A stretch of 19,092 nucleotides of DNA. Origin: Candidatus Bathyarchaeota archaeon (lineage in GTDB: Archaea; Thermoproteota; Bathyarchaeia; 40CM-2-53-6). The stretch covers positions 1 through 19,092 of the forward strand of contig VBBE01000142.1 in the NCBI GenBank assembly GCA_005884605.1, read 5' to 3'. Of the stretch, positions 835-17,029 are shown piece by piece. The number at the start of each line of letters is the position of its first letter. Position 1 is the first letter of the stretch. A program made the position numbers and the translations under genes. The notes under the pieces were generated by a model that worked only from the letters and a program-made list of their open reading frames with translations, was not told the origin of the DNA and did no database searches.

Positions 835-3093
835 GTGAGGGCACCCTCAGAAATTACCACAGTAAATTCAGGTCTGGCCAAGACAGTTATCCCGAGCAAA
901 GACTCGCTGGCCAAGGTTACCTACTACAAGCTTGACCTAGACACTATCCTGGATGGATTGATCCCTGATCCGCTTCCAGAGTCGATCGGTAAGGACAATG
1001 CCATTCACCATCTGAACATCATAATCTTCGGAAAACCAAACACAGGCAAGTGCCTGACGAGTGATGATGTGGTGCCGACAACCACTGGTTCTATCGTCCG
1101 TGTTGGTAATCTGCATCCCGGTCTCGAGGTGTTTTCAGTTGATGAGAACTTCAAGCTGGTCAAGGACAAAGTAGTCGCCGTGGCCTCCAATGGTGTACGG
1201 GACGTTTTCAGAGTCAGACTCTCGGACGGTCGGCAGATCAAGTTGACCTCAAACCATCCGTTGTTGACGGCTTATGGCTGGAGGCAGTTGTCTGATCTAC
1301 ACGAGGGTATCCCCATAGCCGTTCCAAGGGTTCTTCCGGTTGAGGGTAAGCACCTCAACCATGATGCATCGAAGGTTCTCGGCTATCTCATCGCGGAAGG
1401 TGGTCTTACCAACATTACTCCAAGGTTCACGAACGCGGATCAGACGATTGTTGCTGATATGGGGAGGGCTTTGGCCCCGTTCGGCTTGCGGTTGAGCGAG
1501 CCGTACCAGCAAATCAACTACAATGTGGTGCAGATTAAGCCAGGCCAGCCGTTTAGGACAGACGATTCGCGTCATCAGTCCTATGGATACTATAAGCGAT
1601 TCGCCGATGAGTTTGGTCTTCAGAGAGTTAACTCTCGCGGAAAGAGAATCCCCCAATCTGTTCTGCGTGCAGACAACGAGTCTCTCGCAATCTTTCTGAG
1701 TGCTTTGTTTGCTGGAGACGGGTGGGTCGACTCGCGCGGTAACATAGGCTATGGGACCATCTCTTCCGTTCTGGCGCACCAAGTTCAACACTGCCTTCTC
1801 AGATTCGGGGTCCTAAGTAAGCTTCGAAGGGGCGTGCGAGCTCTAGCATGGGACCGCAAGCGCCAGACCGTCTCGTACGAGGTATGGGTCCCGTTAGAAT
1901 ATCGACCGAAATTCGAGCAACACATTGCATTGCCGGAAAGAAGGGTCCTAGTTGGGGCAGACGCCGTGCTCCGGCATGAGCCTCGGCAGATTCGTAGATG
2001 GAGTCAGGATGACTTTCCACTTCCCGTTGCATATCTGAGATCCAGACGCAATTGGCCTGGTCCGTGGTCGGGCGGGGCGTTTGCGAGCATGAAAGAAGCA
2101 CAGGAGTTCGCACGGAAATACAAGCGTCCTTACGCTCTGAAAATCGCGGAGGGTGACTGCTTCTGGCCGCGAATCAAATCCATTGAGTACATTGGCCCCG
2201 TTCAGACTCTTGATGTTCAAGTCGAAAAGACAGGAAATTTGGTCGTCAACGATATTTTCGTTCACAATACTACGCTGGCTGAGTCGCTTTCGCAGGCGCT
2301 GGCGCGTCGGTATGGCCAAGAGAATGTGAAGGCCCTTCGATCGACTAGAGATCTTCCGGCATTGTTTGAAAATATGGATAAACTGTTCAAGCGGTTTCGA
2401 AAGCCTCCGAGGGCGGTTTTGTTGTTTGCTGATGATATGACGAAGGCGTTGAAGAAGCTCTCGGGGACTGTTTCGGTAAAGGATTCCAATGGACAGTTAC
2501 AGAAGATGAGGAGGGTCGATTACTGGCTGGATAAATGGTACGATATCAGAGGCGAACTCTTCAAGCGCGGCATGCGCCAAGGACTCGTGATCATGGTCGC
2601 CGCCCTCCACCGGTTCTATGGAGGAGATATCGACCTACGGGCTGACGCAGATCTGCTATTGGTCAGGAGTACTGGAACGCCTGGGACGTTTGATGCGAAC
2701 AAGGTCGAGCGGATGCTTGGCCCAGTCGTCTACTACGCCATGCGCCAACACGAAGTCGACGCTTTACGGGATAGAAAAGAACTCGCATGGACAGCATATG
2801 TAGCAAAAACAGGCTCCGGAGTCTTCCGCGTACCCCGACCACCAGTCACAAAAAAATGGATAATGCGAAACGTAGGAGCTATCGAGACATCTCAGGAAAC
2901 TGCTTTCGAGATAGTTGAGCCTGGCGGAAAATCAGAGCTAAGAGAGCCAGAGAAGAAATCAGCAGTCGAGGAGAAACTAACTATTCAGACTAGGCCGCAC
3001 CGAGGCAAATGGGGGCGACGCTTCCTTATGGCCACGGGAGTCTTGGCGATACTATACTTAGCCTGGGCATACCTCCGGCCGCTCCTGAGATAG
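835..3093 (+). CDS. Tail-anchored P-loop ATPase interrupted by an intein
   Basis: The 752-codon frame starts at a GTG and encodes a 346-residue host protein split by a 406-residue intein (residues 73-478). Joining the exteins restores a Walker A motif, FGKPNTGK|TTLAES, with the intein between the invariant Lys and the first Thr. A Walker B-like AVLLFADD follows at 527-534. A segment at about 584-610 (VIMVAALHRFYGGDIDLRAD) resembles the sensor region of HerA/FtsK/VirD4-type ATPases. The C-terminus has a charged linker and then one hydrophobic helix (about 730-746) ending in basic residues, so the protein is probably membrane-anchored with the ATPase in the cytoplasm. This order recalls inovirus Zot/pI and conjugation ATPases, but similarity is only structural-level and the role is unknown. 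No Shine-Dalgarno site decides the start. Codon choice shifts to more A-rich codons after about 2750. It stands alone on its strand. Confidence 0.75.
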   Translation: MRAPSEITTVNSGLAKTVIPSKDSLAKVTYYKLDLDTILDGLIPDPLPESIGKDNAIHHLNIIIFGKPNTGKCLTSDDVVPTTTGSIVRVGNLHPGLEVFSVDENFKLVKDKVVAVASNGVRDVFRVRLSDGRQIKLTSNHPLLTAYGWRQLSDLHEGIPIAVPRVLPVEGKHLNHDASKVLGYLIAEGGLTNITPRFTNADQTIVADMGRALAPFGLRLSEPYQQINYNVVQIKPGQPFRTDDSRHQSYGYYKRFADEFGLQRVNSRGKRIPQSVLRADNESLAIFLSALFAGDGWVDSRGNIGYGTISSVLAHQVQHCLLRFGVLSKLRRGVRALAWDRKRQTVSYEVWVPLEYRPKFEQHIALPERRVLVGADAVLRHEPRQIRRWSQDDFPLPVAYLRSRRNWPGPWSGGAFASMKEAQEFARKYKRPYALKIAEGDCFWPRIKSIEYIGPVQTLDVQVEKTGNLVVNDIFVHNTTLAESLSQALARRYGQENVKALRSTRDLPALFENMDKLFKRFRKPPRAVLLFADDMTKALKKLSGTVSVKDSNGQLQKMRRVDYWLDKWYDIRGELFKRGMRQGLVIMVAALHRFYGGDIDLRADADLLLVRSTGTPGTFDANKVERMLGPVVYYAMRQHEVDALRDRKELAWTAYVAKTGSGVFRVPRPPVTKKWIMRNVGAIETSQETAFEIVEPGGKSELREPEKKSAVEEKLTIQTRPHRGKWGRRFLMATGVLAILYLAWAYLRPLLR
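1051..2268 (+). other. Intein 1 (406 aa) with LAGLIDADG homing endonuclease
   Basis: In-frame protein-splicing element with all expected junction residues: Cys1 at host residue 73, the block B TSNHP motif (His141), penultimate His477, terminal Asn478 and a Thr as +1 extein residue. The homing endonuclease has two dodecapeptide motifs, VLGYLIAEGG (181-190) and ALFAGDGWVD (about 290-299), each keeping its acidic residue (Glu188, Asp294), so DNA cleavage activity is plausible. The C-terminal block ends VVNDIFVHN. The insertion point lies in the phosphate-binding loop between Lys and Thr, a favoured intein site because this codon stretch is highly conserved. An unspliced precursor should lack ATPase activity. 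Intact motifs suggest a recently acquired or still selected element. Confidence 0.95.
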
Positions 3094-3378: not shown

Positions 3379-3726
3379 CTAAATTCTTCCTAGGCTGTCT
3401 AGGATTTCGTTGTACAATTGGCCTCTTTTCTTGTCCGAATAGCCGTCGTAGTATAACTCCAGGATTCTGTATCCTCTCCTCCGTAACAGAGATCGTAGCT
3501 CTTCGTCCTTCGCCATTTGAGTTGTTCCAAGGTGGACCCGGCCGTCGATAAACACGAGTAGTGGTCTAGGTTCTAGGGGAAAGTAGAGGTCGGCGGTGGT
3601 TACTGGTATCTCGACCTGTGTAAGATAGCTTATTCGATCGTCTTGTAGCTTGATAGCTAGTTCCTGTTCCATCCGTGAAGGATTAACGCTCAGTCTTTCC
3701 CGCCAGTCGCTCCGCTGACTCGACAT
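3379..3726 (-). CDS. DUF559/Vsr-like nuclease-fold protein, copy 1
   Basis: A 115-residue protein starting at an ATG. The core TTADLYFP (about 43-50), LLVFIDGRVHL (about 56-66), KDEELRSLLRRRGYRILEL (73-91) follows the order of the DUF559 and very-short-patch-repair endonuclease folds: Asp on a first strand, a strand ending in (E/D)-x-D-G-x2-H, then a helix with D-x2-L-R and a G-Y-R-(I/V)-L strand. These belong to the PD-(D/E)XK superfamily, whose members cut or nick DNA. The key residues would be Glu20, Asp46 and Asp61, although the usual Glu of the 'EVDG' strand is Phe-Ile here. A near relative lies at 6305-6646, about three quarters identical by hand alignment, and the first twelve residues are the same. 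Substrate is unknown; nuclease activity is inferred. Confidence 0.7.
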   Translation of the reverse strand: MSSQRSDWRERLSVNPSRMEQELAIKLQDDRISYLTQVEIPVTTADLYFPLEPRPLLVFIDGRVHLGTTQMAKDEELRSLLRRRGYRILELYYDGYSDKKRGQLYNEILDSLGRI

Positions 3727-5551: not shown

Positions 5552-5974
5552 CTAGATCGATCTGACTCCGTGAAAACGGAGCGAATTGAAATCGTCGTCA
5601 AAGGTGAAAATGTCTGAGACGCCATGGGTTCTCGCAAGCACCGCCGTTGAACAATCCGTGAAACTGAGCTTGATCTCGGCTCTCTGCTTGAAGAGCTCCC
5701 AGGATCCCTTCAAGATGTCTCCATCAACTTTCAGGAGGACCATTGTCTTGGAGTTAAGAATGTCCGTTCCTAGCTCGACGGCGAGACTATGGTTTCCGGT
5801 TTGCGACCGGCAGAGAGTAAGAGACTCGTCCAGTACATAGTCCGAGGTATAGAGCTTGCGATAAGGGGTCTCGCCGCGCCCAATCCTCGCGAAGGATTCG
5901 CGCGCAGAGACGTGTTGTCCATCCCTTTTGTTGTAGAATGCCACAAGGGGTCCAGTGTCAACGAAGAGCTTCAG
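5552..5974 (-). CDS. vapC: VapC-type PIN-domain toxin (probable CTG start)
   Basis: PIN-domain ribonuclease, the toxin of a type II toxin-antitoxin pair; such enzymes cut tRNA or other RNA in a Mg2+-dependent way. The N-terminal strand KLFVDTGPLVAFYNKRD holds the first catalytic Asp (6). YVLDESL supplies the Glu (50), SFTDCST an Asp (107), and IFTFDDDF the last acidic cluster (near 125). Length is 140 residues, normal for the family. The first ATG/GTG in frame is the GTG at 5944, but it would cut off the catalytic first strand. The only plausible start is CTG at 5974, which overlaps the antitoxin stop as CTGA and has GGGGAG five bases upstream. This implies translational coupling with vapB from a rare start codon. 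Confidence 0.85.
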   Translation of the reverse strand: MKLFVDTGPLVAFYNKRDGQHVSARESFARIGRGETPYRKLYTSDYVLDESLTLCRSQTGNHSLAVELGTDILNSKTMVLLKVDGDILKGSWELFKQRAEIKLSFTDCSTAVLARTHGVSDIFTFDDDFNSLRFHGVRSI

Positions 5975-6231
5975 CTGGACTCCCCGTAGAGGACCTTGTC
6001 ATGATCGATAGATGTTCTCTCGGTCCCCTTTCCCCAATCCTGGGCCTTCCGTCGCCCAAGCGCTATGTCAAAAATCGGATCCTTCGAATCAATACCCGAC
6101 TCCTCGCTGGTCCAGCGAAGGGCGGCCTCTCGCAACGCGTCCTTGATTGTGAGACCTTTCCTCTCAGCTATCTTGACCAAGGCACGGTACTCTTCTGCGT
6201 CCAGCTCGGTCTGAGCAACCTTTCGCTCCAT
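5971..6231 (-). CDS. vapB: VapB-type ribbon-helix-helix antitoxin
   Basis: An 86-residue antitoxin. The N-terminal part, MERKVAQTELDAEEYRAL, fits the beta strand and first helix of a ribbon-helix-helix DNA-binding domain, followed by KGLTIKDALREAALRW as helix two. The C-terminal half (DPIFDIALGRRKAQDWGKG onward) is the flexible toxin-binding tail common in archaeal VapB proteins. I chose the ATG at 6231 because GGAG lies five bases upstream; a longer frame from 6273 would add a poorly coding N-terminus running through the operator. The protein should neutralise VapC and repress its own promoter. It may be co-transcribed with the nuclease-fold gene 73 bases upstream. Confidence 0.85.
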   Translation of the reverse strand: MERKVAQTELDAEEYRALVKIAERKGLTIKDALREAALRWTSEESGIDSKDPIFDIALGRRKAQDWGKGTERTSIDHDKVLYGESS

Positions 6232-6249
6232 GATATCTCCATGCAACAC

Positions 6250-6268
6250 TACATGCCATGTACATGTA
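6250..6268 (-). promoter_or_regulatory. Probable VapB autoregulatory operator
   Basis: Three hexamer half-sites lie side by side: TACATG, one base, CATGTA, CATGTA. They form two overlapping perfect palindromes (TACATG-c-CATGTA and CATGTACATG). The array sits about 20-37 bases upstream of the vapB ATG and overlaps the likely TATA element on the minus strand, CTTACATGTA. Ribbon-helix-helix antitoxins bind such repeated palindromic half-sites, so autorepression is inferred. Confidence 0.55.
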
Positions 6269-6304
6269 AGCATTTCGGAAATGGGAGGCTCGCAGAGGCG
6301 CAGA

Positions 6305-6646
6305 CTATCCGAGGCCGTTCAAGATTTCCCGGTACAGTTCGTCTCCTTTCTTATCCGTGTAGCTACCGTAAACCAGTTCCAGTATCCTGTATCCTCTTTT
6401 CCGCAATAACGTTCGTAGTTCTTCGTCCTTCATCATCTGCCTCGTCTTTAGGTGGACCCGGCCATCCACGAGCACGATCAATGGTCGAGGATCTAGTGGA
6501 AAATAGAAGTCGGCTGTGGTTACGGGGACCTCGACTTGAGTCAGATAGTTCACCCGGTCAACTTGTAGCCTGAGAGCTAGTTCATGCTCCATCCGTGAAG
6601 GGTTAGCGTGTAAGCGCTCGCGCCAGTCGCTCCGCTGACTCGACAT
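6305..6646 (-). CDS. DUF559/Vsr-like nuclease-fold protein, copy 2
   Basis: A 113-residue paralogue of the gene at 3379-3726, in the same orientation. It keeps the ATG, the N-terminus MSSQRSDWRERL and the PD-(D/E)XK-like core TTADFYFP, LIVLVDGRVHL and KDEELRTLLRKRGYRILEL. The two proteins differ mainly by conservative changes and at the C-terminal helix. Similarity extends at DNA level through the start region, including a stretch CGCCAGTCGCTCCGCTGACT shared exactly with the other copy. The gene lies 73 bases upstream of vapB on the same strand, so a three-gene transcript nuclease-vapB-vapC is possible, although vapB also appears to have its own operator. Function is inferred as a DNA endonuclease-fold protein; real activity is unknown. 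Confidence 0.7.
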   Translation of the reverse strand: MSSQRSDWRERLHANPSRMEHELALRLQVDRVNYLTQVEVPVTTADFYFPLDPRPLIVLVDGRVHLKTRQMMKDEELRTLLRKRGYRILELVYGSYTDKKGDELYREILNGLG

Positions 6647-15338: not shown

Positions 15339-15525
15339 TCCATCGGACTATTGTCCTAGTGTGACATTAGCCCAGCGAACACTTCGCAATGTCTCGTAGT
15401 GACGGGTAATTCGATAGTACTGTGGACTCGGTTCACAGGTTGCGATTCGCTTAACCTTCAACAGTGAACGTGGCTTATTCGGCGAGACGGATAGTAAAAG
15501 AGGAGAGACGGCTACGCGCTACATA

Positions 15526-15735
15526 TTGACAGTTGACTTCGAAGAAGATAACGACATTGACAGTTTCATCCGGTTTGTCCAGTACCACACTAAACGGCTG
15601 AAGTGTCCTAGCAAGGACGTGTTCATCCGGCTCGCTCACGAATGGGAAAAACAGCTGGTGAGCCACCCTGAGCCAAACAACGGCAATGGAATCAAGAAAG
15701 AAAAGAAAAAAACGCTTAAAGAACCATCCGAGTAA
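15526..15735 (+). CDS. Small acidic/helical protein (69 aa) overlapping the intein host gene
   Basis: A 69-residue frame from a TTG start. The N-terminus is acidic (VDFEEDNDIDSFIRFV), the middle amphipathic helical (KDVFIRLAHEWEKQLV), and the C-terminus a Lys-rich, disordered tail. It overlaps the next gene by 50 bases in another frame, so the two are probably translated from one message. No family is recognised. The start is uncertain: the purine-rich AGGAGAG is about 15 bases upstream, and the frame is open further without an ATG or GTG. A 19-codon frame (GTG 15470) ends at the TTGA overlapping the chosen start. The pairing with an intein-bearing partner suggests a two-protein module of unknown function. 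Confidence 0.45.
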   Translation: MTVDFEEDNDIDSFIRFVQYHTKRLKCPSKDVFIRLAHEWEKQLVSHPEPNNGNGIKKEKKKTLKEPSE

Positions 15736-17029
15736 ATTCAAGATCCGAGTACGATACAAGTACCACTACTACCGCTGGATCAACACCCAAGACTACGGCA
15801 GCTTCAAAGACATCTACGAAAAATACAAAGACAAGGGATTCTCCTTTTGGTGTGTACCAAAGGGAGACACAGTGTTCACCAACCCCGGAATAGAATCAAT
15901 GGGCGAGCAGCTAGACTCGATAGTATCCGCGAACGGAAATTACGAGATTCCATCTCGATATTCTGAGAGAGACTATGCGGGCGACCTTGTAGTCGTAAAA
16001 CCATTCCTCCTTCCAGAGACCCGGTTGACTCCAGAGCATCCGGTCTTATCCTGCGAATCTAATCCGCAAAAATCAAAATGGTACAATCCTCAAGCGAGAC
16101 CATCCTTAAGGAAAACTTGGAAACATGCAGGAGAACTAACAGAGAGAGATTGGGTCTTCTTCCCACTCTTCAAAGGCAATAGAGAGGGCGATCCCGAACT
16201 ACTCTACCTCCTCGGCCTGTACATGGCCGAAGGATATTCAACAGGCAATCAAGTCTACTTTGCACTGGGACACAAAGAACGACAACTCGCCGAGCAGATT
16301 CTTCAGATGGCGGAAAAGCACTGGAGCGTAAAGGGCTCAATAAACCATCACAGAACTGGACTGCTCGTTCGTTTTTCCAAACCAGCTTTGGCCGAATTCA
16401 TGAGGAAAGAGTTCGGTAGTAGAGCGGTGAATAAGAAGATCCCGTCGTGGATTATAGAACAACGCGATCCTCAACCTTTCCTCGAAGGATGGCTGAAGGG
16501 AGACGGGTTCAAGCGTGGAAACACTTGGAGGCTCACGACATCATCCAAAACCGCTGCTTACCAGGCGCTGCTCATGGGTTCTCGGCTTGGCATTCTACCT
16601 GCCATCTACACGGACGACAGGGAGGCGCGAGGGATTATCCAGGGACGAAAGGTCAACGCGAAGCCATCATACGAGATACGATTCCATCAGGACGGCAGCA
16701 AATACTCAAACAAGCCAAGTCACGTGGTAAAGACGGAAAACGGCTTCTGGGTCAGGATAAACAAGATAGAGAGAGAAAGATTCTCTGGCAAGGTCTGCAA
16801 TATGGAGACGCCGTCAAACACGTACCTTCTATCCTTCATCGTACACAACTGTGCGGATTTGCCCCCGGAGTATTCTAGCCAGGATGGAACATGGACAGGA
16901 TACCGATTAGATGGCGATAAGACTCATACCGAATCTACGTTGAAGAGGTATGGACGCCATAAGGCGTGGATCGATAGCAGTTACAAGTTCGAAGGAAAAC
17001 CCGTAATCCTCGTCTACAACGCCGAATGA
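15686..17029 (+). CDS. Small hypothetical protein (114 aa after splicing) carrying an intein
   Basis: A 447-codon frame from an ATG. Residues 56-388 are an intein; the joined exteins give only 114 residues. The N-extein is very basic (RKKRKKRLKNHPSKFKIRVR), then aromatic-rich (YKYHYYRWINTQDYGSFKDI) and ends DKGFSFW. The C-extein starts CADLPPEYSSQDGTWTGY and ends with a mixed strand/helix region and KPVILVYNAE. No family is recognised. The splice point lies at a Cys between Trp and Ala-Asp; inteins favour conserved functional sites, so this Cys region may be the active or binding centre. It overlaps the acidic 69-residue gene upstream, implying co-expression. Nothing in the flanks identifies a pathway. 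Confidence 0.75.
   Translation: MESRKKRKKRLKNHPSKFKIRVRYKYHYYRWINTQDYGSFKDIYEKYKDKGFSFWCVPKGDTVFTNPGIESMGEQLDSIVSANGNYEIPSRYSERDYAGDLVVVKPFLLPETRLTPEHPVLSCESNPQKSKWYNPQARPSLRKTWKHAGELTERDWVFFPLFKGNREGDPELLYLLGLYMAEGYSTGNQVYFALGHKERQLAEQILQMAEKHWSVKGSINHHRTGLLVRFSKPALAEFMRKEFGSRAVNKKIPSWIIEQRDPQPFLEGWLKGDGFKRGNTWRLTTSSKTAAYQALLMGSRLGILPAIYTDDREARGIIQGRKVNAKPSYEIRFHQDGSKYSNKPSHVVKTENGFWVRINKIERERFSGKVCNMETPSNTYLLSFIVHNCADLPPEYSSQDGTWTGYRLDGDKTHTESTLKRYGRHKAWIDSSYKFEGKPVILVYNAE
15851..16849 (+). other. Intein 2 (333 aa) with LAGLIDADG homing endonuclease
   Basis: The splicing residues are complete: Cys1 (host residue 56) in CVPKGDTVFTNPG, block B LTPEHPVL (His118), VCNMETPSNTYLLSFIVHN ending His387-Asn388, and Cys389 as +1 residue. 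Two homing endonuclease motifs, LLGLYMAEGY (Glu182) and FLEGWLKGDGF (Asp273), keep their acidic residues. The element is about three times longer than its host. It differs in sequence and insertion residue from intein 1 (+1 Cys versus +1 Thr), so the two were acquired independently or diverged long ago. Confidence 0.95.

Follow-up and report, generated by a model that had tools for sequence, protein, structure and literature searches.

A probable class-1 homing intein in a small gene that overlaps its conserved partner gene in soil Bathyarchaeia

The window analysed here, 19,092 nucleotides of contig VBBE01000142.1 (Candidatus Bathyarchaeota archaeon, assembly GCA_005884605.1), contains two small overlapping genes, the second of which is interrupted by an intein. 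We consider it likely that this is a homing intein parasitising a chromosomal, family-specific operon that encodes the partner protein p69 and the intein's host protein, the two products of which act together. The module is strongly conserved and narrow in range, all host-bearing genomes falling in one family of archaea; it matched no family in the libraries searched, and selection and the intein both mark it as important. A preliminary description made from the sequence alone had proposed both open reading frames (15526-15735 from TTG; 15686-17029 from ATG, a whole precursor of 447 aa) and their 50-base overlap, and these are present as described:

15526..15735, + strand: p69 partner gene, 69 aa with the TTG start, or perhaps 73 aa with a start at ACG 15514
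15686..15850, + strand: N-extein, 55 aa from ATG, or 61 aa if CTG at 15668 is the start
15686..15735, + strand: overlap of the p69 and host frames, 50 bases, or 68 with the host starting at CTG 15668
15851..16849, + strand: intein, 333 aa, with Cys1, block B LTPEH and C-terminal VHN
within 15851..16849, + strand: two LAGLIDADG motifs of the intein, LGLYMAEG and GWLKGDG
16850..17029, + strand: C-extein, 59 aa plus stop, opening with CADLPPE

Judged by its motifs, the intein is an ordinary class-1 LAGLIDADG homing intein, a kind already known; its motifs are named by the usual class-1 scheme, in which the acids of the LAGLIDADG motifs are catalytic. Searched against Pfam, the 447-aa product scores above the cut-off for LAGLIDADG_3 (PF14528; 37.9 against 22.5 bits) and below it for the Intein_splicing profile (PF14890; 12.3 bits against 35.8). 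As read from the sequence, the intein opens with a Cys codon at 15851 and closes with a penultimate His and an Asn codon at 16847-16849, followed by the host's own Cys. The class-1 features (N-terminal Cys, TxxH block B, C-terminal His-Asn and Cys at +1) occur in all 12 full-length inteins, those of the window and 11 genomes, each of which is 333 aa long and stop-free. Eleven of these 12 keep both catalytic acids in their two LAGLIDADG motifs. The exception, L001 (L001:1301-2299), has lost the first acid (AEG to AGG) while its frame stays open; homing is thus unlikely to be active in every case, and this intein is perhaps endonuclease-dead yet splicing. Of 18 further database sequences (P0108-P0125), P0112 is the one in which the pattern did not pick up the first motif.

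The splice junction is proved by intein-free relatives that carry the joined sequence. P0001, 96% identical over the joined 114 aa, reads FSFWCADLPPE unbroken, and the syntenic loci L013-L015 have no insert at the same codon; the exteins thus join exactly at the Cys in FSFW-CADLPP where the preliminary description had placed the site. Its expectation of a conserved target site was also correct, and the Cys that opens the C-extein is invariant across the host family. That the intein lies inside a small basic protein is borne out by the motifs, the boundaries and the mature host, which has 114 aa (120 aa from the CTG start), a pI of 9.7 and a Lys/Arg tail.

The suggestion that the host may be widespread does not hold. 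A class-wide search, which added genome G020, identified the gene in 15 of 256 Bathyarchaeia genomes, and in a draw across the phylum 3 of 398 genomes matched, all three already among the 15; all 15 fall among the 21 genomes available from one family. Twelve of the 15 carry the intein and three (L013, L014 and L015) are empty, and these three, with P0001, are the intein-free alleles that had been sought. Of the 15 loci from the first genome scan, all but L011 were queried further, and these 14 lie in as many genomes; L011 has the same assembly prefix as L012, and the extein halves of their genome, G011, sit on two contigs. The exteins have 41 homologues at E<=10, with metagenomic relatives of the host reaching down to about 50-57% identity, and in a named Bathyarchaeia record the intein-bearing host P0118 and the p69 protein P0087 have adjacent locus tags. 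Each of the 14 genomes examined has the host at one place. Pattern scans of viral contigs found no relative of the host, nor did a search of phage and plasmid records with P0029 as the only query, and a viral origin of the host was rejected on these grounds.

The gene neighbourhood is largely kept. A major facilitator superfamily (MFS) gene lies downstream in 13 of the 15 loci, glutamate synthase upstream in 8 and both in 7, counts in which several loci end at contig edges. The genes between the module and these flanking genes are variable, and in L010 the MFS gene is more distant. The glutamate synthase of L014 groups with Bathyarchaeia loci.

The partner gene accompanies the host. All 15 host-bearing genomes have p69, none of them showing the host alone; within the family, p69 occurs in 16 of the 21 genomes, the additional one being G019, where it runs into the contig end. 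None of the five genomes lacking p69 is a demonstrated loss: in G018 the contig with gltC is 4.5 kb long and stops 1.8 kb past this gene, which is too short for a decision, and the other four have no gltC match either. As to the portrayal of p69 as acidic with a Lys tail, the 73-residue form has a computed pI of 7.9, with 5.8 for its first 54 residues and 9.7 for the tail. Its structure model is of low overall confidence (pLDDT 60): two helices are predicted, the Lys-rich tail is modelled with low confidence, and a structure search with the model returned nothing usable. Pfam gave one match for 18 p69 members, DUF1299 at E 0.017, and none to ribbon-helix-helix families. A ribbon-helix-helix geometry had fitted by eye, but hhalign probabilities against 13 ribbon-helix-helix sequences were at most 0.2%, less than the top value from 30 column shuffles (10.7%), and this identification was dropped.

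The host model is confident over its core (pLDDT >90) and matched no solved fold in Foldseek and a second look at the Foldseek matches. Neither p69 nor the host was matched in the family libraries searched, apart from chance-level matches that we set aside: PNPase_C (E 0.024 for P0001; 8 of 20 members, best 0.0043), phrog_8856 (0.025), eL32 (E 1), Sec18p (E 0.43) and, for the relative P0129, YHS (E 0.0097) and REase_II (E 0.011). P0129 (252 aa) fuses the host domain to an HNH-like region that scores below the Pfam cut-off (20.0 against 21.4 bits), and the distant relatives P0022, P0027 and P0029 have a hydrophobic, basic tail; such varied C-terminal additions start directly after the conserved NA end. 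By eye only, the host-domain end of P0129, LVHNA, resembles the end of a HINT domain.

Host, partner and intein are all under purifying selection. Median pairwise dN/dS is 0.031 for the exteins (66 of 105 pairs usable), 0.072 for p69 (86 of 105) and 0.063 for the intein (50 of 66). The intein has evidently also moved sideways, as homing predicts, a reading drawn from the conflicting trees of L007 and from recombination patches inside the intein. In the intein tree, L007 falls inside the window's clade (support 96/94), the alternative placement being weakly rejected (AU p 0.029) for a grouping that was named after the distances had been seen. In the tree of concatenated glutamate-synthase proteins, L007 lies outside the clade, to which L008, L013 and L014 belong as well (support 100/100), and forcing it into the window's clade is strongly rejected (AU p 2.9e-9); L007 and L010 are long branches in this tree, and the conflict rests on one genome, L007. 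The window and L001 inteins are 95-98% identical in six of nine segments, 92% in the first and 78-81% in the other two; the last two thirds are at 95-98%, both 78-81% segments lie within the first three, and the C-exteins are 79% identical. A tree of p69 plus exteins requires at least two changes of intein presence, of which the starred branches alone force one.

These observations fit a simple cycle. The 447-aa precursor would splice itself to release the 114-aa (or 120-aa) basic host and a free homing endonuclease, which would cut intein-free alleles at the conserved FW/CADLPPE codons, and repair of the cut allele would copy the intein in. The host and p69 genes would form an overlapping two-gene operon that is probably translationally coupled, frame overlap alone being no proof of such coupling. 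Their products most likely act together, presumably as a physical complex in which the basic-tailed host would contact nucleic acid and p69 would be a small helical partner. We regard p69 and the host as probably a nucleic-acid-binding complex, charge being the support for binding; both structure models are of monomers and are uninformative on the complex.

Alternatively, the intein may have been domesticated, in that splicing at the invariant Cys would be conditional and redox or other stress would activate the host through it, the intein being kept for this regulation and not by homing. Its position directly before that Cys, its occupancy of 12 of the 15 genomes, its strong purifying selection and stop-free frame, and its retention in the L001 lineage despite the lost catalytic acid are all in keeping with such a role, and at least some reports describe conditional splicing in other inteins. 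We nevertheless think it rather improbable, as close relatives are empty (L013 is the sister of L008 in the glutamate-synthase tree, and P0001 is 96% identical) and homing accounts for the evident horizontal movement without any benefit to the host.

Two other readings concern the module itself. Two small overlapping genes, one with a basic product and the other with an acidic core, recall a toxin-antitoxin pair or a component of some defence module, with the overlap serving dosage control. This seems very unlikely to us given the single place per genome, the recurrent MFS and glutamate-synthase neighbours, the lack of phage, plasmid or viral-contig relatives in the searches above, a PADLOC result that was blank for the host and at chance level for p69 (E 0.028), and the failure of the ribbon-helix-helix antitoxin fold on test. 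The pair might instead descend from a mobile element, of which P0129, P0022, P0027 and P0029 would be element versions and the chromosomal pair a remnant. The HNH-like region of P0129, albeit below the Pfam cut-off, and the varied additions right behind the NA end favour this descent, to which we attach little probability: strong purifying selection and largely kept neighbours are unlike a remnant, and the same viral, phage and plasmid searches found no relatives. A homing intein in a chromosomal operon of p69 and host is our preferred reading.

In a set of 15 loci that takes in the window, the host frame runs open from within the p69 frame, with starts assumed. The starts themselves look changed in the window's clade, to judge by comparison with other genomes, from ATG to ACG for p69 and from ATG to CTG for the host. 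Elsewhere p69 begins with ATG or GTG before RYILT, a position that is ACG at 15514 in the window and in 9 of 16 loci overall, and the host begins with ATG before SQQ, where the window has CTG at 15668 and other loci of its clade read L. Downstream alternatives in this clade are TTG for p69 and ATG or TTG for the host, and the TTG and ATG starts adopted in the preliminary description are plausible, not certain. No further frame is open throughout in any of the 16 loci, and a third overlapping gene was rejected.

Synonymous differences among codons for shared residues, counted with 15679-15748 excluded, reveal a constraint that ends at the splice site. In the window's clade (8 sequences) they amount to 0.17 (15517-15597) and 0.09 (15598-15678) in p69 and, for the N-extein beginning at residue 22, to 0.03 (15749-15799) and 0.09 (15800-15850); the intein has 0.20-0.45 and the C-extein 0.40-0.46, with an MFS control at 0.36 (7 sequences given, equal-length pairs only). 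A second clade (5 sequences, 3 of them intein-free) has this step too, with values of 0.38, 0.28, 0.14 and 0.20, then 0.51-0.52 in the C-extein. The step is more than a matter of amino-acid mix, because two-fold codons alone show the contrast between N- and C-extein: 0.02 against 0.38 in the first clade (intein 0.23, MFS 0.25) and 0.13 against 0.38 in the second. NNY codons end in C at 119/120, 68/70 and 24/27 positions of the N-extein (the last grouping being L007 and L010) and at 59/122, 50/78 and 23/31 of the C-extein in the same groupings. Both the constraint and this bias stop at the intein site, even where three of five alleles are intein-free; since sequence pairs are non-independent, all these figures are descriptive and not tests.

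The explanations we tried fail to account for this constraint. An RNA element was rejected, as only 2 of 24 predicted pairs have two-sided change (covariation term +0.3); RNA structure z-scores for eight stretches range from -1.65 to +1.0, and no Rfam family matches the window at gathering scores. Ordinary high expression may be the cause of the codon bias, which is as strong in 2 of 35 comparable stretches of the genes searched: open reading frames around the L22 ribosomal gene in five genomes include a few with 0.90-0.96 of NNY codons ending in C. Most of the frames, however, lie at 0.5-0.8, and high expression leaves a bias confined to the N-terminal half unexplained. A bolder and doubtful idea is that p69 and host form a lineage-specific two-subunit nucleic-acid-binding complex of new fold that binds its own message; the constraint, which peaks at 15749-15799, would mark a coding-region control element, and the intein would have invaded exactly where the constrained stretch ends downstream.

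Other inteins of these archaea put the choice of host in context. Replication, recombination and repair proteins host 67% of archaeal inteins, according to PMC5874633. The preliminary description had flagged a small host outside the large DNA-metabolism proteins as unusual. The size relation is confirmed, but such a host is not exceptional here, as NuoI-like ferredoxin and the thioredoxin-like P0126 also serve. An intein profile matches 23 of 256 class genomes at E<=1e-6, and six of these have 5-8 matches each; a match is often to the endonuclease part only, and one intein may yield two. Hosts read from open frames and checked by profile include deoxyribonuclease IV, NuoI-like ferredoxin, S-adenosylmethionine synthetase, a DEAD_2 helicase, a TPP enzyme, a topoisomerase and Hel308; the cases of the synthetase, the TPP enzyme and the topoisomerase come from outside the 21-genome family. 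A host smaller than its intein thus occurs elsewhere in the same family, since the open frame of the ferredoxin (L068, L080), apart from its 373-aa intein, comprises 158-160 residues. That intein sits at a Cys of the 4Fe-4S region, and the intein profile matches open frames of similar length in further genomes.

The inteins of deoxyribonuclease IV (L063, L074) and the NuoI-like protein, both from the 21-genome family, likewise lie before a Cys and match the profile, but differ in length (373-377 aa, boundaries by eye) and host, and their similarity in the profile search is partial. The P0126 intein, from a metagenome, is 45% identical and shares the end LLSFIVHN/CA, but its host is different and its record lacks the N-extein and the intein start. 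Farther afield are the class-1 LAGLIDADG homing inteins of archaea, for example the MCM inteins of Haloferax; homing of archaeal inteins in vivo is reported in PMC10643990. Such inteins share with the window's intein Cys1, the TxxH block B, the HN/C end, two LAGLIDADG motifs and a conserved site that is empty in some alleles and occupied in others; here, unlike there, the host is one third of the intein's size and no replication enzyme, and splicing and cleavage are predicted. A full-text search of the open literature found no paper on inteins in Bathyarchaeota, its one match for Bathyarchaeia and inteins concerning, by title, Thermococcales viruses. The present case shows inteins of soil Bathyarchaeia occupying small proteins other than replication enzymes and still passing from lineage to lineage, which runs against the view of inteins as belonging to large DNA enzymes.

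The window holds several further features. A second intein (1051-2268, 406 aa) lies in the P-loop (GKPNTGK/C...VHN/T) of the product of ORF 835-3093, which is ATPase-like and has a hydrophobic stretch at its C-terminus. Paralogous proteins of 113-115 aa are encoded about 2.6 kb apart at 3379-3726 and 6305-6646 (- strand), with 84 of 114 positions identical in an ungapped alignment; the one at 6305-6646 is weakly DUF559-like, below the cut-off. At 5552-6273 (- strand), a PIN-domain gene adjoins a gene with a sub-threshold ribbon-helix-helix match, and the two are possibly a VapBC-type pair.
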